Shown here: positions 24,726-46,796 of the stretch, in pieces | Layout of the letters: the number at the start of each line of letters is the position of its first letter | Numbering within the stretch: the first letter of the stretch is position 1 | NCBI RefSeq assembly: GCF_020687785.1 | Contig: NZ_JAJEWI010000010.1 | Location: forward strand, 1 to 64,000 | DNA: 64,000 nucleotides | Direction: 5' to 3' | Source of the DNA: Sphingopyxis yananensis | Lineage (GTDB): Bacteria > Pseudomonadota > Alphaproteobacteria > Sphingomonadales > Sphingomonadaceae | The notes under the pieces: model-generated | The model's database searches: none | What the model was told of the DNA's origin: nothing | What the model saw: only the letters and a program-made list of their open reading frames with translations | Position numbers and translations under genes: made by a program

Positions 24726-25778
24726 TTAGGCGGCAAGCTGTTCTGTGGGTTCCGGCGGGAAGATGCTGGGCACACCCGGATCATAGATGCGGGTCAGCAG
24801 GCCGATGAAGGCCTTGTCCGTCAACGGGTCAGTGGGGACGTCGAATTGCAAACCGCGTGCGCGCAAATCTTTGACAAAAATATCAAACACCTGCTCATGC
24901 GTGATATCGTCGCTATGATCGAGGGCGCGCTTCAATTCGGCATAGTCCATATAAATATCCGCGCCCCAGTGGATAAGGAAGCGGAACTCATCTTCTGGAA
25001 TATTTTGAACGACTTGGCCATCGGTGGTAATCTGCCACGCGCCCTTTTCAGCGGTGTTGGCCTGCATCATCGAATTGATCGCCAAACCTTGGGGGCGGCG
25101 CATATGGCTGGGGCCATTGGATTCTGCCGAATGGTACATCATTTCATTTTCGACGACCACGGCGCGGCCCCACATGGGCGCGTTAATCTGCTTGGGCTGG
25201 CCGTGCGGGCCTTCGGGCCAATAGTTAAAGCCGCCGCCAATCTGGCCCTTGTAATACCAGCTAATCACTTGCGCTTTGCGGGCTTGCCAATGTTTGAACA
25301 GGCCGGATTTCACCATCGTGTTCATCAGCCAGATTGGGCTATTATGCATCGTCACGCCGCGAAAACGTGTGGCGTCGACATGCGGGCTGCCGCCAGCGCC
25401 GCAGGGGCCTTGGATATTGAACAGCATATTTTCTGGGGTCGCATAGGCTGCGCCCCAATAACCCCGCACCAAATCCAAGAATTTGCTGTTTAAAAAGCAA
25501 TCTTCGATTTCGGGGTAGAGCATGGTGGAAGCTTGGGCGAAATAACCACGAAACACGGGCGATAGGAACATGTCCCAAGTGGGCGTAAAGCCTTCGGGGA
25601 TGCTGCCGGATGTAGTGGCAATCACTTCTTCGGGTGATTTGAAATGCTGCGCCAAGATCAGCGACCAAGGGCCGTTTTCGCGTACCACATTGAGCATGCG
25701 TTCATGCTGATCAGGGGTGAAGGCGTTTTCGATGACACGGGGTTCCGCAACAGGGCGGAAAATGGAAGGCTGACTCAT
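24726..25778 (-). CDS. HxD...H protein A, putative non-haem iron oxygenase-like
   Basis: A 350-residue soluble protein without a signal peptide. I do not recognise a named family, but it has two strong paralogs in this window (43409 and 45747). All three keep a His-x-Asp (H133/D135 in SPHVDATRFRG) and, 81 residues after the Asp, a His in VVVENEMMYHSAE (H216), plus R228 and LIHW (H270). HxD...H with this spacing is the iron facial triad of the 2-oxoglutarate/phytanoyl-CoA-type double-stranded beta-helix. Other blocks conserved in all three are ENGPWSLILAQHF, LDLVRGYW, WYYKGQIGGGFNYWP and APMWGRAVVVENEMM. It diverges from TBDR-1 and heads the aldehyde dehydrogenase run. The oxygenase role is inference. 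Confidence 0.7.
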   Translation of the reverse strand: MSQPSIFRPVAEPRVIENAFTPDQHERMLNVVRENGPWSLILAQHFKSPEEVIATTSGSIPEGFTPTWDMFLSPVFRGYFAQASTMLYPEIEDCFLNSKFLDLVRGYWGAAYATPENMLFNIQGPCGAGGSPHVDATRFRGVTMHNSPIWLMNTMVKSGLFKHWQARKAQVISWYYKGQIGGGFNYWPEGPHGQPKQINAPMWGRAVVVENEMMYHSAESNGPSHMRRPQGLAINSMMQANTAEKGAWQITTDGQVVQNIPEDEFRFLIHWGADIYMDYAELKRALDHSDDITHEQVFDIFVKDLRARGLQFDVPTDPLTDKAFIGLLTRIYDPGVPSIFPPEPTEQLAA

Positions 25779-25903
25779 CCCAAAAGGCTCCTTTTCATAT
25801 CTTATCGGGGAACGGCTGACGGGCCAGTGAGGGCCTGATCGCCATATCGTCTCCCTTTTTGATTCGGTCGCAATGATAGGCGTGTTGCTCTTGATCGAAA
25901 AGA

Positions 25904-25923
25904 TAGTATGTACTTACTTATAC
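25904..25923. promoter_or_regulatory. degenerate inverted-repeat operator, site e
   Basis: TAGTATG, six bases, CTTATAC: a weaker relative of the GTNAG-N6-CTTAC class. TAGTAT and ATACTA also form outer arms around ten bases. It lies 126 bases upstream of HxD...H A in the gap shared with TBDR-1. Confidence 0.35.
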
Positions 25924-25980
25924 TAAAATTCGAATCGAGCAGGGCGTCCGCCTGTGGGAAAAATATCACCATCTTACGAA

Positions 25981-25999
25981 TTTTCGAATTCGTTTCGAA
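25981..25999. promoter_or_regulatory. TTTTCGAA-type inverted repeat upstream of TBDR-1
   Basis: TTTTCGAA and TTCGAA are arranged as an inverted pair around five bases, in an AT-rich 400-base gap between HxD...H A and TBDR-1. Related TTTTCGA repeats lie near TetR-1 (37776), TBDR-3 (38841) and HxD...H B (44545). I see no gene in the rest of the gap. Confidence 0.4.
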
Positions 26000-26185
26000 T
26001 TTATCTTTAAAATACGCAAATCATATGCATTATGTATAAATTAAGAATTTTTCGTAAAAAAATGTGATTTAAAAGCTGAAAATGAAAATATTGATGTGTT
26101 TGACGCATCAGTAGAAAAACCGAGTGACATAAAGTGAGCGGCACGTGGATGTCGCCGAAAATTTGACGGGGAGAGTGTGTTGCCT

Positions 26186-28747
26186 ATGACGAATTATTTT
26201 GAACGGGCGCGTGCCAAGCGCCCTTCCGTCCTGCTGCTGAGCAGCGTTGCCGTCACGGGCTTATCCCCGATGGCTCAAGCACAAGATGTTACGGCGACCA
26301 GGGAAATCGCATCTGAGCATAGCGGCCTTTCCGAAATCATTGTGACCGCCAACCGCCGTGCCGAGCGCAGCCAAGATGTACCGATTATGATTACCGCTTT
26401 GTCGCCGCAGCGGATGGAGCAGCAAGGCATCGCGAAAGAGCAAGATTTGCAAGCCAGCGTGCCCGGTCTTGTGGTTGGTCCCAATGGCAATGGCTCACGC
26501 GAGGCGCAAAGCTTCACCATTCGCGGCCAAGGCGCGACCTTCCAAGCGTCGCCCGGCGTGGTGGTTTATCAAAATGAAGTGCCCTTGGCGTCTGCCGTGA
26601 CGATCAGTCAGCAAGGCGGCCCTGGTGCCTTTGTTGATTTGGAAAATCTGCAAGTTTTGTCCGGTCCGCAAGGCACGCTATTTGGCCGTAACACCACGGG
26701 CGGCGCCGTATTGCTGACCGCGAAAAAGCCGACCAATGAATTTGGTGGTTGGTTCAAGGCGGAAACCGGCAATTATAAGCGCGCCTATATGGAAGGTGCG
26801 GTCAATATTCCGGTGATTGACGACAAATTGCTGGTCCGCGCTGTCGCCGCTTATCACAGCCGCCGTGGTTTCACCGAAGATGTGGTGTGGAACAAATATC
26901 GCGACAATGAAAATTGGTATTCGGGCCGTTTGGGCGTCACGCTGCGTCCCTTTGAAGGCGTGGAAAATTATACCATGGCTTATATTGGCGACAGCGACAC
27001 CAATGGCGCGGGTCTTGTCCATCGCGGCTTTAATATTGATGGGCTGAAGGCCGTGGGCTTCTGTTCTGATGGTGCGCCAGTCCCAAATTTGGGTGTGCCA
27101 TGCGATCTTTACCGCGAAATCACGAACAATGCCGAAGATATGGGGCCGCGCAAAACGGCCTTTTCGACCGATGTGTATCAGAAAACCAAGCATTGGGGCG
27201 TCAACAACAGCACCGAAATTGAGCTGAGCGAAACGCTTACCCTGCGCAATATTTTCAGCTGGCAACGCCTGCGCATCGGCTATCGCTATGATGGTGATGC
27301 GACGCCGCTGCAACAGCATGATGTGGATGCGGGCCGCTTGCCACCAGCAGGCGTGGTGACACTGCCTGTTTGGAATATTCCGGTTACTTATAATAATAAT
27401 ACGGGCGGAACCGAACGGTATCGCGACGATCAAGAGCAGTTCACCGAAGAATTGCAACTGCAAGGTCAATCGTTCAACAATGCGTTGGATTGGACTGTCG
27501 GTGGCTTTTATTTCCGTCATAAGCCCGTTGGCCCACAAGGTTCACGTGCGGTGATTTATTGCCCGGCGCTCTACACCGGAAATTGCGAAGCCAGCTTCAA
27601 CCGCTATGGCAATGCGAGCAAATCCAAGGCGCTTTATGCGCAGGCCACGCTCGATTTCGGTGCGATAACGCCGAGCTTGGAAGGGCTGCGTTTGACCGGT
27701 GGCTATCGTTATACTTGGGATCATGTCACGGGATTTGCTCGTCAATTCAGCCGCGTGTCGTCCATTCCGGGTGATGTTGGCTTTGGCCAAGCCAAATGTT
27801 CGAAGGATGGCTCGATTGTCGATTTTGATCGCGCCGACGAGCTGTGCAACTTCAGCGGAGATTTAAAAACAAAATCGCCGACATGGACCGTCGGGGTCGA
27901 TTATAAAGTTGATCCTAATGTGATGCTGTTCGCCAAAGTCAGTCGTGGATATAAGGCTGGCGGATTCAACAGCTATTCCGTGCGCTCATCCACCCAAACA
28001 TTTTTGCCAGAATATTTAACCTCTTATGAGGCAGGTATCAAATCCGACTTCTATTTGGGGAAAATTCCATTCCGCTTCAATATGGCCGCTTATTCACTGG
28101 ATTATACAGATATTCAGCGCGCGGTTGCCGATTATAATCCGGAAAATGGAGCGAGCGGTTCCCGCATTTTCAATGCCGATGCCCGCATTCGGGGTTTGGA
28201 AATTGAAGCTTCAGCCCGTCCTGTTCAAGGTTTAACCTTGTCGGGCAACTTTGGTCTGACCGACGGGAAGTATAAGGATTATAACTATACCACTGTGACG
28301 GGCGGTCTTGGCTGTAACGGCGTCGTTGCTCCGGGCGGCGTCATTGATATGTCGTGCATCGACATGCAATATACGGCAAAGTATATTTGGAGTGCGAATG
28401 CTGCTTATGATCTGCCGTTGGCCGATAATAATGGCACGCTATCCTTCTTCCTTAGCTATTCGCACACATCGAAGCAAAATACGGAAGCTGCTAATCTGCC
28501 TACGGTGCAACCAGGTTCAATTTTGCAACCATTTGGTTTGATGAATGCTTCGATTGATTGGCGCAATGTTGGTGGTTCCAATTTGGACATGGGCGTATTC
28601 GCTACCAACCTGACCAATAAGCTGTATCGCATCAGCAATACCAATGTTTATGATCAAGCGAGCCTCCTTTATTGGAGCAACATGTATGGCGAGCCGCGTA
28701 TGTATGGTTTGCGCGCAACCATCCGATTTGGAGGTGAAAAGCATTAA
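26186..28747 (+). CDS. TonB-dependent outer-membrane receptor (TBDR-1)
   Basis: About 853 residues. ATG at 26186 is the safest start; GTG at 26177 and TTG at 26180 lie nearer the GGGGAGAG signal and are possible. It has a signal peptide ending near MAQAQD, a TonB box EIIVTANRRAERSQDVPIMI, a plug with QSFTIRGQGATFQASPGVVV and LSGPQGTLFGRNTTGGAVLL, and a barrel ending MYGLRATIRFGGEKH. It is strikingly similar to TBDR-3 (39088) through the plug and early barrel, including QGGPGAFVDLENLQVLSGPQ, so the two arose by duplication. It diverges from HxD...H A and is followed by a VOC gene. Likely imports the pathway substrate. Confidence 0.92.
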   Translation: MTNYFERARAKRPSVLLLSSVAVTGLSPMAQAQDVTATREIASEHSGLSEIIVTANRRAERSQDVPIMITALSPQRMEQQGIAKEQDLQASVPGLVVGPNGNGSREAQSFTIRGQGATFQASPGVVVYQNEVPLASAVTISQQGGPGAFVDLENLQVLSGPQGTLFGRNTTGGAVLLTAKKPTNEFGGWFKAETGNYKRAYMEGAVNIPVIDDKLLVRAVAAYHSRRGFTEDVVWNKYRDNENWYSGRLGVTLRPFEGVENYTMAYIGDSDTNGAGLVHRGFNIDGLKAVGFCSDGAPVPNLGVPCDLYREITNNAEDMGPRKTAFSTDVYQKTKHWGVNNSTEIELSETLTLRNIFSWQRLRIGYRYDGDATPLQQHDVDAGRLPPAGVVTLPVWNIPVTYNNNTGGTERYRDDQEQFTEELQLQGQSFNNALDWTVGGFYFRHKPVGPQGSRAVIYCPALYTGNCEASFNRYGNASKSKALYAQATLDFGAITPSLEGLRLTGGYRYTWDHVTGFARQFSRVSSIPGDVGFGQAKCSKDGSIVDFDRADELCNFSGDLKTKSPTWTVGVDYKVDPNVMLFAKVSRGYKAGGFNSYSVRSSTQTFLPEYLTSYEAGIKSDFYLGKIPFRFNMAAYSLDYTDIQRAVADYNPENGASGSRIFNADARIRGLEIEASARPVQGLTLSGNFGLTDGKYKDYNYTTVTGGLGCNGVVAPGGVIDMSCIDMQYTAKYIWSANAAYDLPLADNNGTLSFFLSYSHTSKQNTEAANLPTVQPGSILQPFGLMNASIDWRNVGGSNLDMGVFATNLTNKLYRISNTNVYDQASLLYWSNMYGEPRMYGLRATIRFGGEKH

Positions 28748-28752
28748 TTAAT

Positions 28753-28780
28753 AACAGGGGGGGGATTATGCGCCCCCCTG
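28753..28780 (+). terminator. hairpin after TBDR-1
   Basis: ACAGGGGGG pairs with CCCCCCTGT around ten bases, followed by CGTCATTTTC. It lies between the receptor and the VOC gene, so it may lower, not abolish, read-through into that gene. Confidence 0.6.
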
Positions 28781-28817
28781 TCGTCATTTTCTTATCTCTA
28801 CTATAGAAAGATGCGTA

Positions 28818-29225
28818 ATGTCGAACCCAACACCGGGCATGTTTACCAAATTGATTGTCGATGACGAAGAAAAGATGACCGATTATTACACCTCGGTCTA
28901 TCGGTTAAATGCGGCTGTTCGCGTGGACGGCAATAGCGTGGGGACAGGCGAATCCTTTCGTGAGGTGATTTTGACCCAGGGCGCGGATATGAGCAGTGGT
29001 ACATTGGTGATGTTCAAATTCACCGATCGTCCGGCTCCTCGGGATCAGCAGGTCATATTGGGCTTTGTCACCGATGATATGGATGCGCTGAAAGCGCGTA
29101 TCGTCGCCAATGGCGGCGCATTGGTTGGCTCAACCCGCGATGAAGTTAGCCACGGAGTGCGTGTGCAATTTTCACAAGACCCTGAAGGGGCCTTGGCCGA
29201 AAATGTGCAGATGCTCGCGCATTAA
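28818..29225 (+). CDS. VOC-family (glyoxalase/dioxygenase-fold) protein (VOC-1)
   Basis: A 135-residue single VOC module: MFTKLIVDDEEKMTDYYTSV opens the first beta-alpha-beta unit, and VQFSQDPEGALAENVQML is the typical closing strand with a metal-ligand-like Glu. Family members include glyoxalases, extradiol dioxygenases, epimerases and binding proteins, so no reaction can be assigned. It starts about 70 bases after TBDR-1. A similar-size VOC gene lies in the BVMO-3 operon at 46814, so a VOC protein accompanies two of the three modules. Confidence 0.8.
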   Translation: MSNPTPGMFTKLIVDDEEKMTDYYTSVYRLNAAVRVDGNSVGTGESFREVILTQGADMSSGTLVMFKFTDRPAPRDQQVILGFVTDDMDALKARIVANGGALVGSTRDEVSHGVRVQFSQDPEGALAENVQMLAH

Positions 29226-29249
29226 TTTAGAATTTCGGGACGTTATATT

Positions 29250-30251: not shown

Positions 30252-31184
30252 ATGCCTTTAGATCCACAGATAGAGCAAATGCTCGCCGCTATGCCGGAAT
30301 GGCCGGGCGTTCGTGGTGTGCCATTGGATATGTTGCGCCAATCAGTGCATGATTCATCGGTCAACATTCCGCCTGCCGCCGATGCGATTGTCGCGCGCAC
30401 GGAAGATCGCGCTATCGCAGGTCCAGACGGTGATTTGCCCGTTCGCATTTATTGGCCCCAAGCCGAAGGCATCCGCCCCATTGTCATTTACTTCCACGGT
30501 GGTGGCTATGTGATGGGCGATTTGGATACGCAGGATATGATTGCGCGGGCCTTTTGTGCATGGTCTGACGCCATTGTTGTTTCGGTCGATTATCGCCTGG
30601 CTCCCGAGCATCGCTTCCCTGCGGGGATCGATGATGGCTATGCCGCCTTAAATTGGGCGGCGGCTCATGGCGCCGAAATCGGCGGCGATAACAGCCGTTT
30701 GGGCCTTGCCGGCGATAGCGCGGGTGGCAATATCGCCACAGCGTTGGCGCTGCGTGCCCGTGATCAAAATGGACCAAAGGTCAAGGCCTTGGTGAATATT
30801 TATGGATCGGCCAATGCACCGACCAATCCCACGCCTTCGGCGATTGAATTTGCCGACGGTCCGATTTTGCGTTCCGATGACATTCAATGGTTTTGGGAAA
30901 ATTACCTAACCCATCCAGAGGTTGAGCAAAACCACCAAGAAGCTTCGCCGCTGCGCGCGGAAAGCTTGGCGAACTTGCCTGCCGCCTTCATCGGCACGGC
31001 GGAATATGACCCCTCGCGTGATGACAGCGAAGCCTTCGCCGCCCGACTTGCCGATGAAGGCAATGAGGTGGTGATGAAACGTTACGACGGCATGGTGCAT
31101 GGATTTGCGTCATGGGTTGGATTTTTGCCCGGCGCACGCGCTGTGATGCAGGAAAGCAGCCAGTTCCTTAGAGATCATTTATAA
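30252..31184 (+). CDS. alpha/beta-hydrolase, hormone-sensitive-lipase (HSL) family esterase
   Basis: A 310-residue cytoplasmic esterase. Oxyanion-hole motif HGGG (residues 82-85 in YFHGGGYVMGD), nucleophile S156 in GDSAGGN, acid D253 in TAEYDPSRDD and catalytic H283 in DGMVHGFASW. HSL-type enzymes cut carboxylic esters, often of bulky or lactone substrates. Because BVMOs make esters or lactones from ketones, this gene, placed next to BVMO-1 with an SDR in between, fits the hydrolysis step that follows (inference). The start follows GAGGGGG. It is three bases from the next frame, so likely an operon with the SDR. Confidence 0.9.
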   Translation: MPLDPQIEQMLAAMPEWPGVRGVPLDMLRQSVHDSSVNIPPAADAIVARTEDRAIAGPDGDLPVRIYWPQAEGIRPIVIYFHGGGYVMGDLDTQDMIARAFCAWSDAIVVSVDYRLAPEHRFPAGIDDGYAALNWAAAHGAEIGGDNSRLGLAGDSAGGNIATALALRARDQNGPKVKALVNIYGSANAPTNPTPSAIEFADGPILRSDDIQWFWENYLTHPEVEQNHQEASPLRAESLANLPAAFIGTAEYDPSRDDSEAFAARLADEGNEVVMKRYDGMVHGFASWVGFLPGARAVMQESSQFLRDHL

Positions 31185-31199
31185 GTTTTGGTGAGAGTT

Positions 31200-32054
31200 A
31201 TGGGTAAAGATACAGACGTATTTAGCAGCGGCATCGCCGTGGTGACGGGCGCAGGCGCGGGCATTGGTTCCGGCCTTGCTCGCCGTTTGGGCGCGCTGGG
31301 GATGACGGTGATCGTCGCCGACATCAATATGGACAAGGCGGAGCAAGTGGCTGCCAGCATCATCGCAGGCGGCGGAAAAGCCGAAGCCGTGCGGGTGGAT
31401 GTGTCGGTTCCAGCAGAACTGGACGCGCTGGCCGATCATGTGATTAAACATCATGGTCCGGTGAAGCTGCTGATTAACAATGCCGGCATTGAAACGCTGG
31501 GTTATGTGTGGGAAATTCCGGCAGATCGCTGGGAAAAAACGTTGGATATCAATATCCACGGCGTGGTGCATGGGGTACGCGCCTTTGCGCCGCATATGAT
31601 CGCCCATGGCGCAGAAGCCTATATCGCCAATCTCGCATCGGTGGGGTCGTTCGGCATTATGCCAACGCAGACCTCCTATATGATGTCGAAACATGCCATC
31701 CAGTCGTTCAGCGAATGCCTCTATCTGGAAATGCAAGTGGCCGGTGCGCCGATCCACGTGTCGTCGATCATTCCAGGCATGTTGAAGACCGAGATTTTCA
31801 ACGCCGAAGCGGGCGAGGGGGAACCTGCAGCCGCCGCTGCCCATCGCCGCAAAATGTTTGAAATGATGCGCGATTATGGCATGGATTTGGACGAAGGCTG
31901 CCGCTTGTTTGTCGAGCAAATTGCCGAAAAGAAATTCTGGGTTCACAGCCAGCCGGATATGAGCCGTGACATGATTGCCGCGCGTGCCGCGTTCATTCAA
32001 AGTCAAGAAGCACCAGCGCTGTCGCCGGAAGTGGAGCATCTGCTTCAACATTAA
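31200..32054 (+). CDS. SDR
   Basis: A 284-residue SDR. ATG at 31200 (MGKDTDVFSSG) is preferred over an earlier GTG at 31188. Motifs: VVTGAGAGIGSGLARRLGAL, acidic VADINMDKA for NAD, INNAGIETLGYVW, Ser in NLASVGSFGIM and YMMSK. The C terminus carries an extra helical region (AEAGEGEPAAAAAHRRKMFE) typical of the larger classical SDRs that act on hydrophobic alcohols. Fifteen bases after the esterase gene, so co-transcribed. It may oxidise the alcohol freed by ester cleavage. Confidence 0.87.
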   Translation: MGKDTDVFSSGIAVVTGAGAGIGSGLARRLGALGMTVIVADINMDKAEQVAASIIAGGGKAEAVRVDVSVPAELDALADHVIKHHGPVKLLINNAGIETLGYVWEIPADRWEKTLDINIHGVVHGVRAFAPHMIAHGAEAYIANLASVGSFGIMPTQTSYMMSKHAIQSFSECLYLEMQVAGAPIHVSSIIPGMLKTEIFNAEAGEGEPAAAAAHRRKMFEMMRDYGMDLDEGCRLFVEQIAEKKFWVHSQPDMSRDMIAARAAFIQSQEAPALSPEVEHLLQH

Positions 32055-32103
32055 ACGACACATTCTGGCGCGCTGCGGCCGGATTTGAAATGACCAAAAA
32101 AAG

Positions 32104-32132
32104 AAGCCCGCTAAGTCTTGCTTAGCGGGCTT
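32104..32132. terminator. bidirectional Rho-independent terminator
   Basis: AAGCCCGCTAAG and CTTAGCGGGCTT pair perfectly around TCTTG. An A-run lies on the left and T-rich sequence on the right, so it can serve both the SDR (plus) and the convergent BVMO-1 (minus). Confidence 0.9.
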
Positions 32133-32173
32133 TCTAGTTGGCTGGGAGAGGCTCCAGCAAGAGATTTCAAAAC

Positions 32174-34105
32174 TTATTTGTGAAGGATGTAGCTGCCATC
32201 CTTGGGCCCACGTGTGGCGTTGAAGAAATCGACCAAGCGCCATGGCCAAGACAGGAACACGCGGCCCTTGCTATTGTTATAATAGCTGTTGGCCTTGGGA
32301 TGGGACCAGATCATCTGCTTCATCCGTTCGTCGACTTCTTCGTTCCAATCCCAAAACGCCTTTTCGGTCACTTCAAAGCTTTTCGCATCCCCTTCATTGA
32401 TGCGGTCCAAAGCTTCGATTATCCAATTGACTTGGCATTCCGAAATGAGATTTTGACCGGCGGCATGGTTGGGCGCGCTGTTGGGACCAACGGTATGGAA
32501 ATAATTGGGGAAATCGGGGATGCACATGCCTAGATAGCTGCGCGCATCTTCTTCGCCCCAAAGCTCGCCCAAATTTTTCCCATTGCGGCCAATGATCTGC
32601 AAATCGCCGGTCATTTTCGCGACCGCAAAGCCCGTGGCGCAGATGATGACATCGGCTTCGAAAACGCTGCCATCTTTTGCTTCGATGCCATTGGGAAGAA
32701 TGCGCGCTATCCCTTGATCTATCAATTCCACATTGGGGCGTAGCAGCGCGTCATACCAGCCGTTGTCGAGAATAATGCGTTTGGAAAAAATCGGGAAATC
32801 TGGAGTCAATTTCGCAATCAAATCCGGACGATCGGCGAAGCGTTGATGCATATACATCAGGGCATATTGTCGGATCGCATCATTATGCGCCGAAACGGCC
32901 AGATCATTGCCCGCATAGGCAGGGTCCATCACGACGTTTGCGAACAACCCATCGGCTGCGGACCAATAGACGCGGAAACGGAACCATTGTTTGAAATGGG
33001 GGATATTTTCCAACGCCCATTTCATCCCCTCTTCGACCTCATTGGCGATTTCAGGGTTAAACAAGGTCCAATGCTTGGAACGTTGATAAACCGCCAGTGC
33101 GCCAACTTGCGGAGCAATCGCACCGACCAATTGCGCAGAGCTTGCCCCCGTACCGATCACGGCAACGCGCTTGCCTTTTAGATCCAAATCGCGCGGCCAA
33201 TCGGCGGTGTGAACCACTGGGCCATTAAAGCTATTCAGGCCTTCAATGTCAGGGAATTTATAGCGGTTTACAGGACCGTGGCCGTTAATCACGGCGTTGG
33301 CAGTTATCACTTCCGTCTGGCCATCGGCCTTGCGAATGGTGACCGCCCAAGTGGCGTTGGCTTCGTCATAAACAAGGCGTTCCACCTTGCTGTTAAAGCG
33401 AATATTTTCACGAATGCCTGATTTGTCAGCCACTTCCAGCATATAGTGCTGCATATCCGCGCCTTGCGGATGATAATGCTGCCACTGGGTCCAAATTTCC
33501 CAGCTAAAGCTATAGAAATGGCTTGGTGTATCAACGCCGACACCGGGGTAGCGATTTTCATACCATGTGCCGCCGACTTCGGCATTCTTCTCAATTACGA
33601 CATAGTCATAGCCCGCTTCGCCTAATTTGATGGCGGCGGCCATTCCCGTCATGCCTGCGCCGATAACAAGCACTTTGAAATCTTTGCCATTTTGTGGGCG
33701 CGTAGCTTGGGCCGAACGATCAATCCAAGGTTTGAATCCGCATTGGTCGAATACCAAAGGCACAAATTCATGTGAGACGTCTTCTCCTGCGGTCACGGTC
33801 ATGATGCGTTGCAGAAGAGCGGACTCAATTGGCTCGTCGGTGTAGCCGACGCCGGTGGTCAGTAATTTATGCATTTTTGCGCGCAGATCGGCGATCAGCG
33901 CTTCGGGAATTTCGACGACGTCCGGCGAAAATGCTGGGCGGATGAAGGGAGCAAATTGCTCCAAAGTGGCCGAGTCATGCGATAAATGCACATAGGCGGC
34001 CAGCACCGTGTGAATATTGGCTTGCTGAAGGGCCGACTGCAATTCGGAGCTATCGGGCAGCAAGGGCGCAGATGTGATATTATAAGGCGCTGTCGCGACG
34101 GTCAT
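32174..34105 (-). CDS. Baeyer-Villiger monooxygenase, HAPMO-like (BVMO-1)
   Basis: A 643-residue class B flavoprotein monooxygenase that would use FAD, NADPH and O2 to insert oxygen next to a carbonyl. FAD motif VIGAGMTGMAAAIKLGEAGY (near residues 148-167), EVGGTWYENRYPGVGVDTPS, the BVMO fingerprint FNGPVVHTADWP (residues 293-304) and a second Rossmann motif VIGTGASSAQLVGAI for NADPH. About 140 extra N-terminal residues place it with 4-hydroxyacetophenone monooxygenase (about 640 residues) rather than cyclohexanone monooxygenase (about 540). An operator-like repeat lies 18 bases upstream of the start. The substrate could be an aryl, steroid-like or terpenoid ketone. Confidence 0.92.
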   Translation of the reverse strand: MTVATAPYNITSAPLLPDSSELQSALQQANIHTVLAAYVHLSHDSATLEQFAPFIRPAFSPDVVEIPEALIADLRAKMHKLLTTGVGYTDEPIESALLQRIMTVTAGEDVSHEFVPLVFDQCGFKPWIDRSAQATRPQNGKDFKVLVIGAGMTGMAAAIKLGEAGYDYVVIEKNAEVGGTWYENRYPGVGVDTPSHFYSFSWEIWTQWQHYHPQGADMQHYMLEVADKSGIRENIRFNSKVERLVYDEANATWAVTIRKADGQTEVITANAVINGHGPVNRYKFPDIEGLNSFNGPVVHTADWPRDLDLKGKRVAVIGTGASSAQLVGAIAPQVGALAVYQRSKHWTLFNPEIANEVEEGMKWALENIPHFKQWFRFRVYWSAADGLFANVVMDPAYAGNDLAVSAHNDAIRQYALMYMHQRFADRPDLIAKLTPDFPIFSKRIILDNGWYDALLRPNVELIDQGIARILPNGIEAKDGSVFEADVIICATGFAVAKMTGDLQIIGRNGKNLGELWGEEDARSYLGMCIPDFPNYFHTVGPNSAPNHAAGQNLISECQVNWIIEALDRINEGDAKSFEVTEKAFWDWNEEVDERMKQMIWSHPKANSYYNNSKGRVFLSWPWRLVDFFNATRGPKDGSYILHK

Positions 34106-34300: not shown

Positions 34301-35671
34301 TTAGCCTTGGGCCGTGCTGGCTGCATGAATGCGGGCCGTATCGCGTTGATAATGGGTTGATGCGCGCAAGAATAAAGCACCGCCCACCAAGGTTAGGCCG
34401 CTCATCCCTAGCAGGCTGACCCGCAGCGCATCTTCGCCAAAGTGCATGCCTAAAGCGTCACTGACCAAACCAGCCAGCACGGGGCCTAAAGCGCTGCCGA
34501 CCACATTGATGACAACGATCAATACAGCCGCTGCTTGGGTGCGTCGTTCAGGCGCGAAAAGTTGGGCGACACTTGCAAAACCCGGCCCCATCCATGCAGC
34601 GCTCAAAAAGCCACTGATCAGCATATAAATGCCCACGACCGGAATGGAAAAGCCGCCAACCTTCAAGGCTTGGCCCGCAGGCATCGTAAACATTAGCCAA
34701 AAGATGGGGAAGGACATCATAAAGAATAATGCGGGCAGGCGTAATTGCCATGCTGGGTTGCGGCGCACGAGCCGGTCCACCATGGCCCCGCTGGAAAAGC
34801 TGCCCAATACACCGCCGATAGTTGAGCAAATGCCCAATAATATTCCAGCCTCCGCCGCAGACATTTCATGCGATCGCATCAGAAAAGTGGGCATCCAGAT
34901 GGAGCCAGCATAGCCGAAAATATTGAAGATGCCGATCGCCAAAGCCATTAGGCGCAACGATTTTATACTCCAGAATTCCTTCATCACGGCCCACGAACTG
35001 GCCGAATTTTTCTTTTCCGCCATTTGCGCAGAAAAGGCTGCCGTGCGCTTGGGGCCTGTTAACCAGATCAGCAGCGCCAAAGGCAGTCCCGCGAAAGCCA
35101 TAGCATAAAAGGCCCAGCGCCAACCAAAGGTGGACGCTAGATAGCCGCCCCCCGCAAGGCCCACGACCAAGCCGAAATAGGGTGCCGCGCCTAAAAAGCC
35201 CAAGGCCGTTGATCGGCGATGCGGAGGGAAAAGCTGCGATACCATCGATTGCGAAGGCGGCATTGCCCCAGCCTCACCCGCGCCCACGATAAAGCGGGAA
35301 ATGGTAAGTTGCAGGGCGTTGCTCGCTGCGCCGCAGGCGCTCGTTGCAAGGCTCCATGTCGTAATAGAGGCCGCCAAAATCCTGCGCCGTGACCAACGAT
35401 CCGCCAGACCAGCCAAGGGCATGGCGAATAGCAGATAGCTGATGGTGAAGGCTGGCCCTGCTATCAGCCCCAAGCTGCTGTCGCTGATCTGAAATTCCTT
35501 TTGAATGGCGGGCATCGCAATGGAGAAAATATAGCGATCAGCATAGCTCATCACATTGGCGGCGGTGAGCAAGATCAAGATATAAATCGCATAAGCGGTG
35601 CTGCTGGGGCCGGTAGGCTCTTGCGCGCTGGGCTGCGTGGTGTCGGTTCTGTTTTCTTCTGTTAACGACAT
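34301..35671 (-). CDS. major facilitator superfamily transporter
   Basis: A 456-residue, 12-segment inner-membrane transporter. The start is the ATG at 35671 behind GGGGGAGAA. Typical MFS signatures are PAIQKEFQISDSSLGLIAGP in the first helices, GLADRWSRRRILAASITTWS in the loop between helices 2 and 3, and GAGEAGAMPPSQSMVSQLFP. The subgroup resembles the anion:cation symporter/aromatic-acid type often called spinster-like. It lies 23 bases after BVMO-2, so the two are an operon and the protein may carry the BVMO substrate or its product. Confidence 0.9.
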   Translation of the reverse strand: MSLTEENRTDTTQPSAQEPTGPSSTAYAIYILILLTAANVMSYADRYIFSIAMPAIQKEFQISDSSLGLIAGPAFTISYLLFAMPLAGLADRWSRRRILAASITTWSLATSACGAASNALQLTISRFIVGAGEAGAMPPSQSMVSQLFPPHRRSTALGFLGAAPYFGLVVGLAGGGYLASTFGWRWAFYAMAFAGLPLALLIWLTGPKRTAAFSAQMAEKKNSASSWAVMKEFWSIKSLRLMALAIGIFNIFGYAGSIWMPTFLMRSHEMSAAEAGILLGICSTIGGVLGSFSSGAMVDRLVRRNPAWQLRLPALFFMMSFPIFWLMFTMPAGQALKVGGFSIPVVGIYMLISGFLSAAWMGPGFASVAQLFAPERRTQAAAVLIVVINVVGSALGPVLAGLVSDALGMHFGEDALRVSLLGMSGLTLVGGALFLRASTHYQRDTARIHAASTAQG

Positions 35672-35694
35672 AAAATTCTCCCCCAATTGCGGGA

Positions 35695-37689: not shown

Positions 37690-37775
37690 ATATCTTCTCC
37701 CAAATTTCAAGCGCCGACACGCGTTCGCGGTGGCCGCCTTATGGGGCAGCTATTGCCAAAGCTGGGCGTAAGCGC

Positions 37776-39087: not shown

Positions 39088-41601
39088 ATGAATAAGGATT
39101 TGTGCGCAATTTTGTTGGCTGGAGCGGCGTCTGTTGCCATGCTGATGCCAGCGGCAGCCGATGCGTCAGAAGCAGATACGGCGGCCACTAGCGGGAGCCA
39201 TGGCTTAGAAGATATTGTGGTTACGGCCAACCGCCGCGCTGAGCGCAGCCAAGATGTGCCAATCATGATTAGCGCCTTTTCGAGCCAAGATCTTGAGAAG
39301 ATGAATATCAGCGAAGCCCAAGATCTTTATGGTACGGTGCCTTCTTTGGTTGTTGGTACGCAAGGCACCTCCAGCCGCGATGTTCAGTCATTCTCTATTC
39401 GTGGGCAATCTACCGGATTTTTGGCGCTGCCATCCGTAGCGACCTATTTCAGCGAAGTCCCGCTGGTCGCTACGATCAGCTTGCCGTTGCAAGGCGGCCC
39501 AGGCAATTTTGTTGATCTGGAAAATTTGCAGGTGCTGTCGGGTCCGCAGGGTACGCTATTTGGACGTAACACGACGGGCGGCGCGGTCTTGTTGACGCCC
39601 AAGCGCCCAACCAACGACCTGGAAGGTTATGTTCAAGGCTCTATTGGGTCATATGATCTTCAGAATATTGAAGGTGCCATCAACCTGCCCATCGTCGAAG
39701 ATAAGCTGATGGTTCGCGTGACTGGTGCTTATTATGACCGCCGTGGTTTCACCAAGGATTTGGTTTGGGACAAATGGCGTGACGACCAGCATTGGTATAT
39801 GGGCCGTGTGGGTATCCAATTTAACCCCACCGAAACCATTTCGAATAATCTAACGGTGTTTGGTGCGCGTACGCGTAATAATGGTGCTGGTTACATCCAT
39901 AAAGGATTTAACTATAATGCGCGGGCTGTCGCGGCTTGCGGTTATTTTGGCAATTGTGACGTTTACGAACGACAAACAGAAATCGCCAACCAAATTGGCC
40001 CCCGCAAGACGCGCTTAAGCCATGACGTTTACACCAATATCGACAGTTTCGGAGCCGTTAACAGCACGGATATCGAACTGGGCGCCAATTTGACCCTGCG
40101 GAACATCATCAGTTATCAAAACATCAAGGTTGATTATGCCGGTGATACCGATGGTACGCCGTTGCAATTCTATCAATTGACGCAAAATGCGAAGTTCCCT
40201 GACTTCCCGATCAAGGGATTGTCGGACGAATTTGGGATTGCGCCAAATGGTTTCGTCAATGGCGGGAAAACGACCCACCCCCGTGACCATGTGAAGCAAT
40301 TCAGTGAAGAATTGCAGCTACAAGGCAAATTGCTTGACGGTAATTTGGACTTCGCTATCGGCGCATTTTATCTGGACGCTACGCCCGTTGGCGATTGGGA
40401 ATCCTATACCGTACAATTCTGCTCCGCTGGTGCGACAGGGCAGGCATATACTGGGGGAGCGGATTGCCGCCCGAGCCGCGGTATTGGCGGCGTATCCAAT
40501 AAATCGCGCGCTGTTTATGCGCAGGGGACGTTGAATTTCGCAGCGCTTTCAGAAGCTCTGACGGATCTGCGATTTACCGCTGGTTATCGCTATACGTGGG
40601 ACCGTATCGAAGGCTTTAGCCGCACGTGGACAGACCTGCCCGGTGGCCTTGTGGATTGCACGCTGAAAGGTGGCGCACCGACCGATAATGTCGAGGATTG
40701 CACCTTTACCGCTCATTTGAAGTCTAAGGCTCCAACATGGACGGCTATTTTGGACTATAAGCCCACACGTGGCCTGATGCTCTATGCCAAGGCTACGCGC
40801 GGCTATAAGGCTGGCGGTTTCAACAATGTGGCCGTGTCCGAACAATATCGCACGTTCGAGCCAGAGCGTTTGACCAGCTATGAAGCGGGCTTCAAATCGG
40901 ACTGGCGCCTAGCTGGTGCTCCGGGTCGTTTAAACATGACCTATCACTATGCAGACTATTCGAATATTCAGCGTCCAGGTGCTGATTTTAATCCAACGAC
41001 TGGGGCGGGCGGTGCGAGCATTTTGGCTGCTGCGGCGACCATTCAAGGACTGGAAGCGGAAGCGTCGATCAGCCCTTGGCCTGGTTTGACCATCGGTGGT
41101 ACGCTGACCCACACGGACGCCGAATATACGGATTATAGTTTCCGGACCCTTGGCGGAGATATTGGTTGTAAAGCGGGTGGTGGTTTCGAGCAGGTAGCGG
41201 CTGGGGGTATGGTCGACGCAAGCTGTATGCCATTCCAATATGTCATGCCTTGGATGTATAATATCCATGCGGATGCGAATCTGCCCTTGGGTAATGGTTT
41301 GGGCGATTTGAACTTCTATGTCGGTTATTCGCACTTTTCTGGTCAACCAACCGCGCCGGCAAGTGATCCTAGCTTCCAGCCTGGTTCGACTTTGGAGGCT
41401 TATGGCTTGCTGAATGCGTCGGTGGATTGGCGTAATGTGGCACAATCAGGCTTCGACTTGGGCCTGTTTGTGACCAACGCGACCAACAAGCTTTATCGCG
41501 TCACCAACACCAATATTTACAATGATATCGGTGTGTGGGGCGTGCTGTATGGCGAACCGCGGATGTTTGGTATGAAGCTGCGCTATAGCTTTGGCCGTTA
41601 A
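39088..41601 (+). CDS. TonB-dependent outer-membrane receptor (TBDR-3)
   Basis: An 837-residue paralog of TBDR-1. Signal peptide of about 26 residues (MNKDLCAILLAGAASVAMLM to AAADA), TonB box DIVVTANRRAERSQDVPIMI, plug with QSFSIRGQSTGFLALPSVAT and LSGPQGTLFGRNTTGGAVLL, and a barrel ending GEPRMFGMKLRYSFGR. Differences from TBDR-1 are concentrated in the extracellular-loop regions, as expected when paralogs take different ligands. GGGGAGAG precedes the ATG. It is followed by a strong terminator. Lies next to TetR-1 and shares its operator. Confidence 0.92.
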   Translation: MNKDLCAILLAGAASVAMLMPAAADASEADTAATSGSHGLEDIVVTANRRAERSQDVPIMISAFSSQDLEKMNISEAQDLYGTVPSLVVGTQGTSSRDVQSFSIRGQSTGFLALPSVATYFSEVPLVATISLPLQGGPGNFVDLENLQVLSGPQGTLFGRNTTGGAVLLTPKRPTNDLEGYVQGSIGSYDLQNIEGAINLPIVEDKLMVRVTGAYYDRRGFTKDLVWDKWRDDQHWYMGRVGIQFNPTETISNNLTVFGARTRNNGAGYIHKGFNYNARAVAACGYFGNCDVYERQTEIANQIGPRKTRLSHDVYTNIDSFGAVNSTDIELGANLTLRNIISYQNIKVDYAGDTDGTPLQFYQLTQNAKFPDFPIKGLSDEFGIAPNGFVNGGKTTHPRDHVKQFSEELQLQGKLLDGNLDFAIGAFYLDATPVGDWESYTVQFCSAGATGQAYTGGADCRPSRGIGGVSNKSRAVYAQGTLNFAALSEALTDLRFTAGYRYTWDRIEGFSRTWTDLPGGLVDCTLKGGAPTDNVEDCTFTAHLKSKAPTWTAILDYKPTRGLMLYAKATRGYKAGGFNNVAVSEQYRTFEPERLTSYEAGFKSDWRLAGAPGRLNMTYHYADYSNIQRPGADFNPTTGAGGASILAAAATIQGLEAEASISPWPGLTIGGTLTHTDAEYTDYSFRTLGGDIGCKAGGGFEQVAAGGMVDASCMPFQYVMPWMYNIHADANLPLGNGLGDLNFYVGYSHFSGQPTAPASDPSFQPGSTLEAYGLLNASVDWRNVAQSGFDLGLFVTNATNKLYRVTNTNIYNDIGVWGVLYGEPRMFGMKLRYSFGR

Positions 41602-43353: not shown

Positions 43354-43369
43354 CGTTGATACGGAATAG

Positions 43370-43404
43370 TGGAGGAGGTGTGATGACGCCTCCTCCAAGT
43401 TTTT
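43370..43404 (+). terminator. Rho-independent terminator after TetR-2
   Basis: TGGAGGAGG and CCTCCTCCA pair around ten bases and are followed by AGTTTTT. Symmetrical enough to serve also the convergent HxD...H B. Confidence 0.85.
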
Positions 43405-43408
43405 ATCT

Positions 43409-44473
43409 TTAGGCCGCGCGGTGCAAGGGGCCTGGCGCTTCCTTCGGATAGATACGCGGCGCGCCCACATCATAAGCGGCGGTCAATACGCGGATAAAGT
43501 CCACGTCATGGGCAGGGTCGCTGGGCACTGCAAAGGTGATGCCGCGCTGACGCAGGTCGGCGATGAACATATCAAACACCTGATCGAGGCTGATATCATC
43601 CTTATGCTCCATGACGGTGCGGAGTTCATCCATATCCATGAAGATATTCGCCGACCAATGGACGAGCAGACGCATTTCATGCGCCGGCACATTTTGGATC
43701 ACTTGACCATCGGTGGTGATCTGCCAACCGTCGGCGACATCGGGATCTGCGCGGAACATGGAGTTAAACGCCAAGCCAGCGGGCATCCGCAATTCTTCTG
43801 GGCCATTTGGCTCTGCGCGGTGGTACATCATTTCATTTTCGACCACGACCGCGCGGTTCCACATTGGCGCGGCAATGCGGGCTGGTTCAGCCTGCGGGCC
43901 ATTGGGCCAATATGTGAAGCCGCCGCCGATATTGCCCTTGTAAAACCAGCCGATCACTTGCGATTTTTTCTTTTGCCAATGCCGGAACAGGCCGGATTTG
44001 GTCATGGTGTTCATCAGCCAAATTGGTGCATTGCGCTGGCTGATGCCGCGAAATTCGGTGGCGTCAATATGGGCTGGATCTTGGCTGGTGCAGGCGCCGT
44101 TGATGTTGAACAGCATATTGTCGGGGATGGCATATTCCGCGCCCCAATAGCCGCGCACCAAATTGATGAATTTCCTATTGTAAAACAGATCATCAATTTC
44201 GGGATGCAGCGAAGCGCCATATTTCGCCAGATAGCCTCGGAAATTCGGCGTTAAAAACATATCGAACGTGGGCGTTACGCCTTCCGGCATAGAGCCGGAC
44301 ATCGTTGCCACCACTTCATCGGCTGATGCAAAATGTTGTGCCAAAATAAGCTTCCATGGACCTTTGTCTCGTACCAACTGAACCAACCGCGCGTGCTGGT
44401 CGTCGCTATAGGTCCCGTCGATCACCTGTGGGGGAGCGACAGGTTTGATGATGAATGGGGATGTGTCGGCCAT
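43409..44473 (-). CDS. HxD...H protein B, putative non-haem iron oxygenase-like
   Basis: A 354-residue paralog of protein A. The start is the ATG at 44473 (MADTSPFIIKPVAPPQVIDG); an upstream TTG at 44491 is less likely. The putative metal residues are H135 and D137 in PAHIDATEFRG and H218 in VVVENEMMYHRAE. GFTYWPNGP, LVRGYWGAEYA and LLVHWSA blocks match A and C. The N-terminal KPVAPPQVIDGTYSDDQH is almost the same as in C (PVAPPQIIENSYSDDQH). It is a single minus-strand gene with a large palindrome just upstream. Role is inferred; no signal peptide or membrane segment. Confidence 0.7.
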   Translation of the reverse strand: MADTSPFIIKPVAPPQVIDGTYSDDQHARLVQLVRDKGPWKLILAQHFASADEVVATMSGSMPEGVTPTFDMFLTPNFRGYLAKYGASLHPEIDDLFYNRKFINLVRGYWGAEYAIPDNMLFNINGACTSQDPAHIDATEFRGISQRNAPIWLMNTMTKSGLFRHWQKKKSQVIGWFYKGNIGGGFTYWPNGPQAEPARIAAPMWNRAVVVENEMMYHRAEPNGPEELRMPAGLAFNSMFRADPDVADGWQITTDGQVIQNVPAHEMRLLVHWSANIFMDMDELRTVMEHKDDISLDQVFDMFIADLRQRGITFAVPSDPAHDVDFIRVLTAAYDVGAPRIYPKEAPGPLHRAA

Positions 44474-44521
44474 GATAATATCTGCTCCCAAGAATTTATG
44501 CTGGATCCGAAATTATCAGCT

Positions 44522-44582
44522 TTTTACACTATCACAACATATTTTCGAATATGTTTCGGAAATATGTTGTGATAGTGTAAAA
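44522..44582. repeat. 23-bp perfect inverted repeat with TTTTCGA core upstream of HxD...H B
   Basis: Arms 44522-44544 and 44560-44582 are exact reverse complements (TTTTACACTATCAC... on the left) around the 15-base centre TCGAATATGTTTCGG. The centre and inner arms resemble the TTTTCGA operator class of 37776 and 38841. It begins 49 bases before the HxD...H B start and abuts an IS3 remnant on the other side. Confidence 0.8.
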
Positions 44583-44736
44583 TGTCGCCCTTCCACAATC
44601 TTGGCTTGGTAGAAGTCGAGCAGCGTGGACTTGCCAATCCCTATATTTGATGCAACGCGGCAGCACGGTAATCCGCTGACCATCGCATCCTCATGGCTTC
44701 TTACGTGAAATCATTGATGAAATTAGCCTTACTCAT
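44583..44736 (-). pseudogene. IS3-family orfA remnant
   Basis: From the ATG at 44736, behind AGGAGG, the minus strand reads MSKANFINDFT, a stop, EAMRM, and then in another frame VSGLPCCRVASNIGIGKSTL followed by LDFYQAK. This is the helix-turn-helix of an IS3-type OrfA (compare the LSRERVARDLGIGK region of the element at 1-660). It is short, interrupted and frameshifted. It ends at the edge of the 23-bp palindrome. Bases 44737-44829 show nothing else. Confidence 0.55.
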
Positions 44737-44829
44737 CTTCGCCTCCTAGACTCAAAATTCGTATCGAAGGCGTCTAGAACTATACGGGCTATTCAATCCG
44801 AGCTATTTTTTGCATCCCCCTTTCTATGG

Positions 44830-45747
44830 TTAATTTCCCGATGCATTAATCATGGGGTGGGACCATGCCGGTGGTTCCTGCAAGGAAAGCCTCGTCTGGC
44901 CGTCGAGGCTGTGAACGTCCAGATGATAATGCCATGGAAAATGAAGGCTGGATGCAATGAGGCCGGTGCGCTGGGCTGCTGGCAAATGGACCATGGCGCA
45001 AACAGTTTCTGCCAAATAGGCGGGGTCTTCGGTTGGGAAGTCGGCGGGAATAAGGCTGTCCGTGCTGGGCGTTCGAATGGCGGTTGATGGCCCAACGGCA
45101 TTGACCGCAATATTATCATCCAACAATTCCGCCGCCATGCCTTGTGTCAGCCGGTTGAGCGCCGCCTTGGCCGCTGCATAGACCGCATAGCCGCGAAATT
45201 TTTCAAACGCTGGATACGGCCGAATGGGGGGGAGCGCATCTTGTGACGTGATGTTCACAATCCAACCGGCCCCCGCCTGCCGCATCAAGGGAATGGCGCC
45301 TTGGCTGATCGCCAAAGGCGCGCGCAGATAGTGGCTGATCGTCCGATCAAAAATCTCGATCGGCATATCGGCGACGGGCAGGAAATCGGCCAAGCCCGCA
45401 TTATTCACCAAAATGTCCAACCGCCCGCCTGCGACTTCGGTCGCCCGCTGGGGAAGGCGTGCGCAATCCTCGGCGCTTTCAATATCGGCGGCCAAGGCGA
45501 ATGCCGTCCCGCCTTGTGCCGCGATCATGGCCAGTGTTTCTTGAAGCGTGCCCGCCATAATAGCGGGCGCGCCGCCGCGTGTGCCTTGGATCGACGCATC
45601 CAGCGAGCGCGCCGTGACGACCACCGTTGCGCCCGCCGCGGCCAGCCGCTGGGCAATGGCGCGGCCAATGCCGCGGCTGGCCCCCGTCACCAGCGCGACT
45701 TTGCCGCTGAGATTGGGGGGGGAGGGAGCCAGTTTATCCATCATCAT
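44830..45747 (-). CDS. SDR
   Basis: A 305-residue SDR, last gene of the BVMO-3 operon. VALVTGASRGIGRAIAQRLA is followed by VVVTARSLDAS, where Arg after the second strand favours NADP(H). ILVNNAGLADFLP, Ser in VNITSQDALPP and YAAAK complete the active site. A 20-residue insertion (QGTRGGAPAIMAGTLQE) after the second strand and a C-terminal tail (HYHLDVHSLDGQTRLS) are unusual. Its first ATG overlaps the stop of HxD...H C by one base (TAATG); two more ATGs follow at once. Confidence 0.86.
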   Translation of the reverse strand: MMMDKLAPSPPNLSGKVALVTGASRGIGRAIAQRLAAAGATVVVTARSLDASIQGTRGGAPAIMAGTLQETLAMIAAQGGTAFALAADIESAEDCARLPQRATEVAGGRLDILVNNAGLADFLPVADMPIEIFDRTISHYLRAPLAISQGAIPLMRQAGAGWIVNITSQDALPPIRPYPAFEKFRGYAVYAAAKAALNRLTQGMAAELLDDNIAVNAVGPSTAIRTPSTDSLIPADFPTEDPAYLAETVCAMVHLPAAQRTGLIASSLHFPWHYHLDVHSLDGQTRLSLQEPPAWSHPMINASGN

Positions 45748-46796
45748 TAATCCACCGCATCCGCTGGAATATTTTGTGGTCCGCCAATGTCATAAACGCG
45801 GGCGAGCAGGCCGACGAAATTATTGTCATTCAGCGGATCAGTGGGCACTTCAAATTGCACCCCGCGCGTTTGCATATCGCCAATCAGCATGTTGATCGCC
45901 TGATCGGCGCTGATATCGTCGCTATGATCATAGGTGCGTTTGAAATCGCCCAAATCCTTGAACAGACGCGCGCCCCAATGGACAAGGAACCGCATTTCCT
46001 CGGCAGGAATATGCTGGTTTATTTGGCCGAAGGTTTCAATCTGCCAGCCTGTGGGGTCATTGGGGTCTGCCCCGAAAGTGGAGCTGATATCCATGCCTGC
46101 GGGTTTGCGCAGGCTCTGCGGACCGGTAGCTTGGCCATGGTGGAACATCATTTCATTTTCCACCACCACCGCGCGGCCCCACATGGGCGCTTGAATTTGC
46201 AACGGTGCGCCTGCCGGACCATCAGGCCAGCAGTTAAAACCTCCGCCAATTTGCCCTTTATAATACCAGCTAATCACCTGCGCTTTTTTGGAGCGCCAAT
46301 GGTTGAACAGGCAGGATTTCGCCATGGTCAGCAACAGCCACAAGGGCGTGTTTTCCATCGTCATGCCGCGAAAAACGGTGCCGTCCAAATGGGGCGGCCC
46401 GCCAATCGGGGTGGGGCCTTGAATATTGAACAAAAAGGTTTCCGGTTCGGCATATTGGCAATCCCAATAGCCCCGCACCAGATCGAGATAGCGGCTGTTA
46501 TAATAGCAATCCTCTATTTCTGGATAAAAGCAGGTTCCGCCCCGTGCCAAATAGCCACGGAAGACGGGATTAAGGCCGATCATGTCCCATGTCAGCGTCA
46601 CGCCTTCGGGCAGGGTGCCGGATGTGGTGGCGATGACCTCTTCGGGTGTTTTGAAATTTTCTGCCAAGATCAACGGCCAAGGGCCATTTTCGCGCACCAC
46701 CTTCAGCAAGCGGCTATGTTGATCGTCGCTATAGCTATTTTCGATAATTTGCGGGGGCGCGACCGGCGTGAAATTTTTGGCAAGTTCATGCATCAC
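45747..46796 (-). CDS. HxD...H protein C, putative non-haem iron oxygenase-like
   Basis: A 349-residue paralog of A and B. Candidate metal ligands H136 and D138 in PPHLDGTVFRG and H219 in VVVENEMMFHHGQ; LVHWGA is kept. It is embedded in a compact operon: VOC-2 ends 17 bases upstream and the SDR start overlaps its stop. That arrangement puts this family in the same transcript as a Baeyer-Villiger monooxygenase, so the two probably act on the same compound. Alternative reading: a cupin-like protein without oxygenase activity. Confidence 0.7.
   Translation of the reverse strand: MMHELAKNFTPVAPPQIIENSYSDDQHSRLLKVVRENGPWPLILAENFKTPEEVIATTSGTLPEGVTLTWDMIGLNPVFRGYLARGGTCFYPEIEDCYYNSRYLDLVRGYWDCQYAEPETFLFNIQGPTPIGGPPHLDGTVFRGMTMENTPLWLLLTMAKSCLFNHWRSKKAQVISWYYKGQIGGGFNCWPDGPAGAPLQIQAPMWGRAVVVENEMMFHHGQATGPQSLRKPAGMDISSTFGADPNDPTGWQIETFGQINQHIPAEEMRFLVHWGARLFKDLGDFKRTYDHSDDISADQAINMLIGDMQTRGVQFEVPTDPLNDNNFVGLLARVYDIGGPQNIPADAVD

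Follow-up and report, generated by a model that had tools for sequence, protein, structure and literature searches.

The superfamily of Fe(II)/2-oxoglutarate (2OG) oxygenases, recognised by an HxD/E...H iron triad and a double-stranded beta-helix, includes the PhyH family (PF05721), with AsqJ, SptF and AndA among its members, as well as HIF prolyl hydroxylase 2 (PHD2) and AlkB. In these enzymes an Arg or Lys is expected about 10-14 residues past the distal His, and HxD, as opposed to HxG or HxA, favours a hydroxylase over a halogenase. Here we analyse a 64,000-nucleotide stretch of the Sphingopyxis yananensis genome (the window; positions 1 to 64,000 of contig NZ_JAJEWI010000010.1), in which three paralogous HxD...H proteins, A, B and C, had been singled out from the sequence alone as a possible oxygenase family tied to Baeyer-Villiger monooxygenases (BVMOs); we refer to this as the original prediction. 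Computation gives the family the fold class and the conserved catalytic signature of the 2OG oxygenases, and a gene partnership and co-divergence with BVMOs. The closest described BVMOs are the N-extended enzymes of the HAPMO type, treated in passages of PMC10028610, and the BVMO of the pdc cluster of Caenibius tardaugens. The latter, like the window BVMOs a sphingomonad enzyme, has been proved active on a steroid, converting progesterone to testosterone acetate, but passages of the same paper describe its cluster as a BVMO, a luciferase-like monooxygenase and two regulators, and the words 'dioxygenase' and '2-oxoglutarate' are absent from the main text (PMC12239570).

Conserved signature, fold and distribution of the family

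All three reading frames exist where the original prediction placed them and carry exactly the triad residues it named (Table 1). Their similarity does extend over the whole length, with pairwise identity of 53-60% across 337-342 residues, far above chance. The S. yananensis assembly contains three family copies in total. They occupy separate branches of the family tree, and the nearest relatives of each are found in other genomes, not in the window; hence they are old paralogues and not products of a recent duplication. The support for the nearest partner of B is weak (99/39).

The family alignment has 81 rows representing 80 different sequences, added rows being restricted to 280-460 aa. H133, D135 and H216 (numbering of A, here and below) are kept in all 81 rows, so that the HxD/E...H triad is universal in this alignment and the loss of these residues in homologues, named in advance as evidence against an oxygenase, is not observed. 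The Asp and the distal His are separated by 81 residues in 64 rows and by 80 in 17 rows. Other invariant positions include R140, G141, N211, R266 and H270. The LxHW motif, claimed to be conserved, is present in the three window proteins (at 268 in A, 270 in B and 271 in C), but across the family only its His, H270, is invariant (81/81), the Trp being replaced in part by Tyr. An Arg or Lys at +9 to +14 after the distal His occurs in 80 of 81 rows.

A, B and C have no match in Pfam or NCBIfam at E-values up to 10, and this includes the PF05721 model. Searches of PDB sequences with protein A alone and with the profile of alignment A1, which omits two pieces of one interrupted Haliea copy, returned chance-level matches only. 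The sequences thus are of an unrecognised type, as had been noted, and no clear match to a characterised non-oxygenase family turned up in Pfam or NCBIfam. Comparison of the family profile with 30 PhyH proteins, drawn from 15 genomes or records, gave an alignment of 188 columns (E-value 3.9e-4, score 36.6; query row, protein C), while 12 clusters of neighbouring genes, used as decoys, scored at most 25.5 against the family profile. With no motif input, this alignment pairs the two HxD motifs, the two distal His residues, and R227 with the Arg of PhyH. Of ten random subsamples, all had HxD in register, and nine had H, D, H and R in register together. The family appears to resemble PhyH in the order and register of HxD...H...R. 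On the other hand, it is longer (about 350 aa), has C-terminal helices in the model, and has invariant R140, N211, R266 and H270.

A was modelled with AlphaFold from an alignment of 30 sequences (mean pLDDT 90.8, pTM 0.89). Foldseek finds 74 PDB matches for this model at E-values of at most 1e-3, led by PHD2 at 3.1e-6, and the best 50 of these 74 are all Fe(II)/2OG-type oxygenases. A second model, that of a paralogue from strain Chol11 with 37% identity to A (pLDDT 90.5), has 21 PDB matches with E-values of at most 1e-3, every one a 2OG oxygenase. The structural check suggested with the original prediction therefore came out in favour of a 2-oxoglutarate oxygenase fold, as both models match Fe/2OG oxygenases first. 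AsqJ, SptF and AndA are among the matches of the family. The top matches of the model of A, which include PHD2, AlkB and other Fe(II)/2OG oxygenases, have probability 1.00 but only 8-14% identity and query-length TM-scores of 0.29-0.37, and the substrates of PHD2 and AlkB differ from those proposed below. Taken by fold and signature, the family almost certainly belongs to the Fe(II)/2OG superfamily. Its members are probably working Fe(II)/2OG oxygenases, and on balance we would describe A, B and C as members of an unnamed family of divergent PhyH-like putative oxygenases.

Family genes were found in nine of 298 genomes of a Sphingomonadaceae draw, the window genome included. In a phylum-wide draw of 398 genomes, matches outside the window genome were at the noise level of 12-13 bits. 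A contig scan yielded 21 loci from Sphingomonadales, Haliea/Parahaliea, other Pseudomonadota, one member of Myxococcota and one assembly labelled Klebsiella pneumoniae. The family gene in the latter (L017) groups with Pseudomonadales, and the assembly is probably a mislabelled metagenome bin. Relatives occur in 22 of 72,556 plasmid records, among them pRHL1 of Rhodococcus jostii RHA1 and a plasmid of Embleya; in these 22 records they are annotated as 'hypothetical protein' in 18 cases, lack a feature at that place in two, and are unannotated in two. No paper describing the family was found among the listed titles, opening parts of abstracts and passages searched in PMC. Interrupted copies were observed in Haliea (G681 C4:286715-287748), RHA1 (W05 955404-956422) and P6W (W07 396140-396735).

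Association with N-extended BVMOs

Positions of family genes and BVMOs were compared in 26 genomes or records, each chosen for holding a family gene and none for a BVMO; related genomes are not independent in the family counts. After merging by coordinate the split matches at one place, there were 86 family places and 125 BVMO places. The N-extended set comprises 73 of the 125 BVMOs: those with a match start of at most 110 of the query, together with five that start later and were included manually because their open reading frames are long. N-extended BVMOs lie within 1 kb of 18 of the 86 family copies and within 5 kb of 39, compared to 0.65 and 1.69 expected under random placement within the genome or record. 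BVMOs without the extension are found within 1 kb of no copy (0.29 expected) and within 5 kb of three (0.81 expected). Ordinary PhyH genes from 15 of the 26 genomes or records provide a further control: there, an N-extended BVMO occurs within 5 kb of 29 of 57 family copies versus one of 61 PhyH genes (Fisher test, 1.2e-10), and within 10 kb of 36 of 57 versus five of 61. Three of the 61 PhyH genes, all in Chol11, have a family gene within 5 kb. The recurrent partnership with a BVMO is real, and specific with regard to both controls; ordinary PhyH genes, unlike the family, are not tied to N-extended BVMOs. The partner occurs in sphingomonads, in members of Halieaceae and on two plasmids of actinomycetes.

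After deduplication, 38 family genes have a BVMO of at least 590 aa within 6 kb, and the orientation of these pairs was compared. Of the pairs no more than 1 kb apart, 18 in number, 13 are on the same strand, five divergent and none convergent, whereas the 20 farther pairs include 13, three and four, respectively. The distance matrices of the oxygenases and BVMOs correlate, with Mantel r of 0.78 for the 18 pairs and 0.56 for 31 pairs with a unique BVMO; neither value was reached in 5000 shuffles. This fits joint inheritance of the oxygenase and the BVMO. In the orthologue group of C, all nine distinct tree members have a same-strand BVMO within 2.2 kb. The coupled step suggested in the original prediction agrees with both the proximity and the co-divergence, and the family is probably coupled functionally to the BVMO.

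All three BVMOs that had been noticed near A, B and C carry the FxGxxxHxxxW fingerprint. With their first FAD motif at residues 149-160, they resemble the HAPMO-type enzymes as these appear in passages of PMC10028610; the difference concerns partner genes only, BVMOs of the window type being paired with the new family. In 37 BVMO-cluster proteins of at least 590 aa, whose starts are uncertain, the FAD motif begins at a median position of 153 (range 16-210).

Possible pathway and alternative explanations

The reading we lean towards is that a divergent PhyH-like hydroxylase primes a polycyclic substrate for a short-chain dehydrogenase/reductase (SDR), a BVMO and an esterase; the metal, the use of 2-oxoglutarate, the order of steps and the substrate are what we infer. 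Fe(II) held by H133, D135 and H216 would activate O2 with 2-oxoglutarate, with R227 as a candidate anchor of the 2-oxoglutarate carboxylate. The enzyme would hydroxylate an unactivated C-H of the substrate, most likely a steroid or a steroidal sapogenin. An SDR could then turn the resulting alcohol into a ketone, the N-extended BVMO could insert an oxygen atom next to the carbonyl, and an esterase of the Abhydrolase_3 type could open the ester or lactone, leaving dehydrogenases, CoA ligases and beta-oxidation to complete the breakdown. The paralogues may differ in substrate or position, each with its own BVMO. A similar alcohol-to-ketone-to-BVMO logic was proposed earlier for SAR202 (in passages of PMC5395668).

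Recurring neighbours were counted in 73 stretches (72 loci longer than 9 kb and window positions 17001-52000); most of them were chosen because they contain the family gene, and some overlap. The BVMO cluster occurs in 43 stretches, the cluster of the SDR at 31188-32054 in 15, the aldehyde dehydrogenase cluster in 12, and the Abhydrolase_3 cluster in 11, RHA1 and Embleya included. In RHA1 pRHL1, where seven neighbouring proteins were scanned against Pfam only, the order is Abhydrolase_3, a 214-aa open reading frame (ORF), SDR and BVMO, with the family gene 4 kb further on the opposite strand. On the Embleya plasmid, 3 kb with two opposite-strand ORFs separate the family gene from the BVMO, and the BVMO is followed by genes of the acyl-CoA ligase and Abhydrolase_3 clusters, in this order, both assigned by clustering only. 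The set of SDR, BVMO and Abhydrolase_3 fits ketone formation, oxygen insertion and ester cleavage; hydroxylation is the step that the new family would supply.

Judging by gene context, a steroid or related polycyclic compound is the likelier substrate. Matches to KshA_C, a model of the steroid 9-alpha-hydroxylase type, occur in all nine genomes holding the family versus 73 of 298 overall (hypergeometric 2.1e-6, the genomes being related and not independent). One copy on pNL2 of N. aromaticivorans has an HsaA-like gene two places away and an HsaD-like gene three places away. Their scores are under the cut-offs (373 bits against 450 for HsaA and 145 against 400 for HsaD) and BphD is close at 133, and thus neither was assigned as an equivalog. 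Passages of PMC4810484 report a steroid cluster of unknown function on pRHL1, and two Novosphingobium species whose steroid clusters are located on plasmids; the tie of the former to the RHA1 family copies is the same plasmid only. The 15 Sphingobium plasmid records with the family (plasmids only were considered) comprise 14 with RC1 or Tom strain names and one S. herbicidovorans, and in passages of PMC10653915 RC1/Tom is the naming of alpha-tomatine-degrading Sphingobium isolates. Saponins would fit the genes for glycosidases and rhamnose that accompany copies of the family in ES2-1 and P6W. A Chol11 locus (L005) was considered as the published HIP cluster and dropped, as the gene order differs.

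Several observations weigh against this reading. The sequence link to PhyH is weak, with a probability of 35%; among the subsamples the lowest score, 21.9, is under that of the best decoy and the highest is 37.5 (probability 1-39%), and a link to 2OG-FeII_Oxy_3 (PF13640) was rejected at a score of 16.5, the level of decoys. Position 227 is Arg in 69 of 81 rows, Gln in ten and Trp in two, and one row has no Arg or Lys at +9 to +14. For the Chol11 paralogue, non-2OG folds appear in the match list from rank 32. For the two models together, the query-length TM-scores of the top 2OG matches are just 0.29-0.38, although the target-length values reach 0.59. The low TM-scores therefore point to a divergent version of the 2OG fold, with additions. 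One alternative, which we consider unlikely, is a metal-dependent non-oxygenase with the same beta-helix fold, such as an isomerase, a lyase or a lactone or ketal hydrolase, acting after the BVMO without 2-oxoglutarate. It would agree with the variation at R227, with invariant R140, N211, R266 and H270 having no assigned role, and with the recurrent esterase, VOC and SnoaL/NTF2 genes, which imply several non-redox steps in the clusters. However, the best Foldseek matches are 2OG oxygenases and not cupin isomerases or hydrolases, and the family Arg is in register with that of PhyH in nine of ten subsamples. We know of no biochemical study of any family copy, which leaves room for a catalytically dead or binding protein that keeps the fold, a chaperone or sensor for the BVMO, the more so as the genes often stand beside catalytic partners. 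This is very improbable, as the triad is kept without exception in 80 different sequences, among them members that share only about 37% identity with A and members of another phylum.

The partnership itself is not universal: 47 of the 86 copies lack an N-extended BVMO within 5 kb; for 15 of these 47 there is none on the contig or record, and some of these contigs or records are long. TonB receptors likewise are frequent neighbours of family genes, with two clusters in 28 and 10 of the 73 stretches; their recurrence too was among the checks proposed with the original prediction. The family could accordingly consist of Fe(II)/2OG oxygenases of general terpenoid or xenobiotic catabolism, the BVMOs being close because they share catabolic islands and not because they act in one pathway. 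The abundance of SDR, TetR, TonB receptor and transport genes in the clusters, and the several copies without an N-extended BVMO within 50 kb, would suit such islands. This explanation also seems unlikely given the distances, the strand bias, the co-divergence, the two controls and the uniform arrangement in the orthologue group of C (9/9).

If hydroxylation and oxygen insertion are indeed coupled, the family and the co-diverging N-extended BVMO might form a portable two-oxygenase cassette, common to Pseudomonadota and Actinomycetota, for opening the rings or side chains of steroids and saponin aglycones; this suggestion is tentative. Equally tentatively, the sequence would be to hydroxylate, oxidise, insert oxygen and hydrolyse, taking the place of P450 or aldolase routes. 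None of A, B and C is recognised by Pfam or NCBIfam, yet the genome of the bile-salt model strain Chol11 carries 13 family matches. In a review table, several Chol11 side-chain enzymes are marked absent (passages of PMC8399759), and genes for sapogenin catabolism are described as largely unknown before the alpha-tomatine study (passages of PMC10653915). Such a cassette, if it exists, could fill the absent bile-salt steps in sphingomonads and the unknown steps in sapogenin degradation, and would supply an enzyme family that can be tested for these gaps, as well as a new pair of hydroxylase and BVMO for use in steroid biocatalysis.

Genes of the window and minor observations

The contexts described in the original prediction were all recovered (Table 1). 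C belongs to the run BVMO3-VOC-C-SDR with gaps of 40, 17 and -1 bp, A diverges from a TonB-dependent receptor, and B ends 55 bp from a TetR-type gene. A likely heads an operon with the aldehyde dehydrogenase, 3-hydroxyisobutyrate dehydrogenase-like, OYE-type, SDR and SnoaL genes.

Table 1. Family genes and neighbouring genes in the window
Feature	Coordinates	Strand	Remarks
3-hydroxyisobutyrate-dehydrogenase-like, OYE-type ene-reductase, SDR and SnoaL genes	19858-23134	minus	following A
Aldehyde dehydrogenase	23168-24622	minus	103 bp after A; start is a chosen internal ATG, mechanical ORF reaches 24784
Protein A	24726-25778	minus	350 aa, putative family oxygenase; H133, D135, H216, R227
TonB-dependent receptor	26177-28747	plus	divergent from A
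Abhydrolase_3 esterase	30252-31184	plus	3 bp upstream of SDR 31188-32054
SDR	31188-32054	plus	recurrent neighbour cluster, RHA1 pRHL1 among its stretches
BVMO1	32174-34105	minus	643 aa, N-extended
MFS transporter	34301-35686	minus	between BVMO1 and BVMO2
BVMO2	35695-37710	minus	N-extended; 671 aa counted from TTG, residue 8 being the first Met
Second TonB-dependent receptor	39088-41601	plus	
Protein B	43409-44473	minus	354 aa, putative family oxygenase; H135, D137, H218; start is ATG at 44473, mechanical ORF extends to TTG at 44491
SDR	44830-45747	minus	1-bp overlap with end of C
Protein C	45747-46796	minus	349 aa, putative family oxygenase; H136, D138, H219
VOC (glyoxalase superfamily) protein	46814-47242	minus	between BVMO3 and C
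BVMO3	47283-49283	minus	N-extended type I BVMO of 666 aa; likely in one operon with C

A minus-strand ORF at 31179-32249 overlaps the plus-strand SDR gene. It has no family match and was set aside, and the SDR gene was therefore taken as real. The plus-strand ORF at 28818-29225 encodes a protein of 135 aa without a Pfam match at E-value 1e-5; its end resembles VOC proteins, and its cluster occurs in six of the 73 stretches.

Window regions 13003-18229 and 22238-25778 contain genes for a CaiB-type CoA transferase, an enoyl-CoA hydratase, two acyl-CoA dehydrogenases and the aldehyde dehydrogenase, together with gene A. By annotation, this set resembles the genes near family copies in ES2-1 (L027) and P6W (L125), the latter locus also having a gene of the 3-hydroxyisobutyrate dehydrogenase cluster. 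The window aldehyde dehydrogenase, 3-hydroxyisobutyrate dehydrogenase and the dehydrogenase at 17285 belong to neighbour clusters in common with P6W, and thus an acyl-CoA module may travel with the family.

In Chol11, ordinary PhyH genes lie at most 330 bp from family genes at two places (G678 C10:2034698-2036645 and C6:99490-101330), so that two oxygenases are adjacent. In S. herbicidovorans (L064, 7917-10174) a Phosphotransferase gene, presumably APH-like, stands beside an acyl-CoA dehydrogenase gene near family genes. A kinase and an acyl-CoA dehydrogenase can handle 4-hydroxyacyl-CoA, and the product of a BVMO and an esterase might need such handling.

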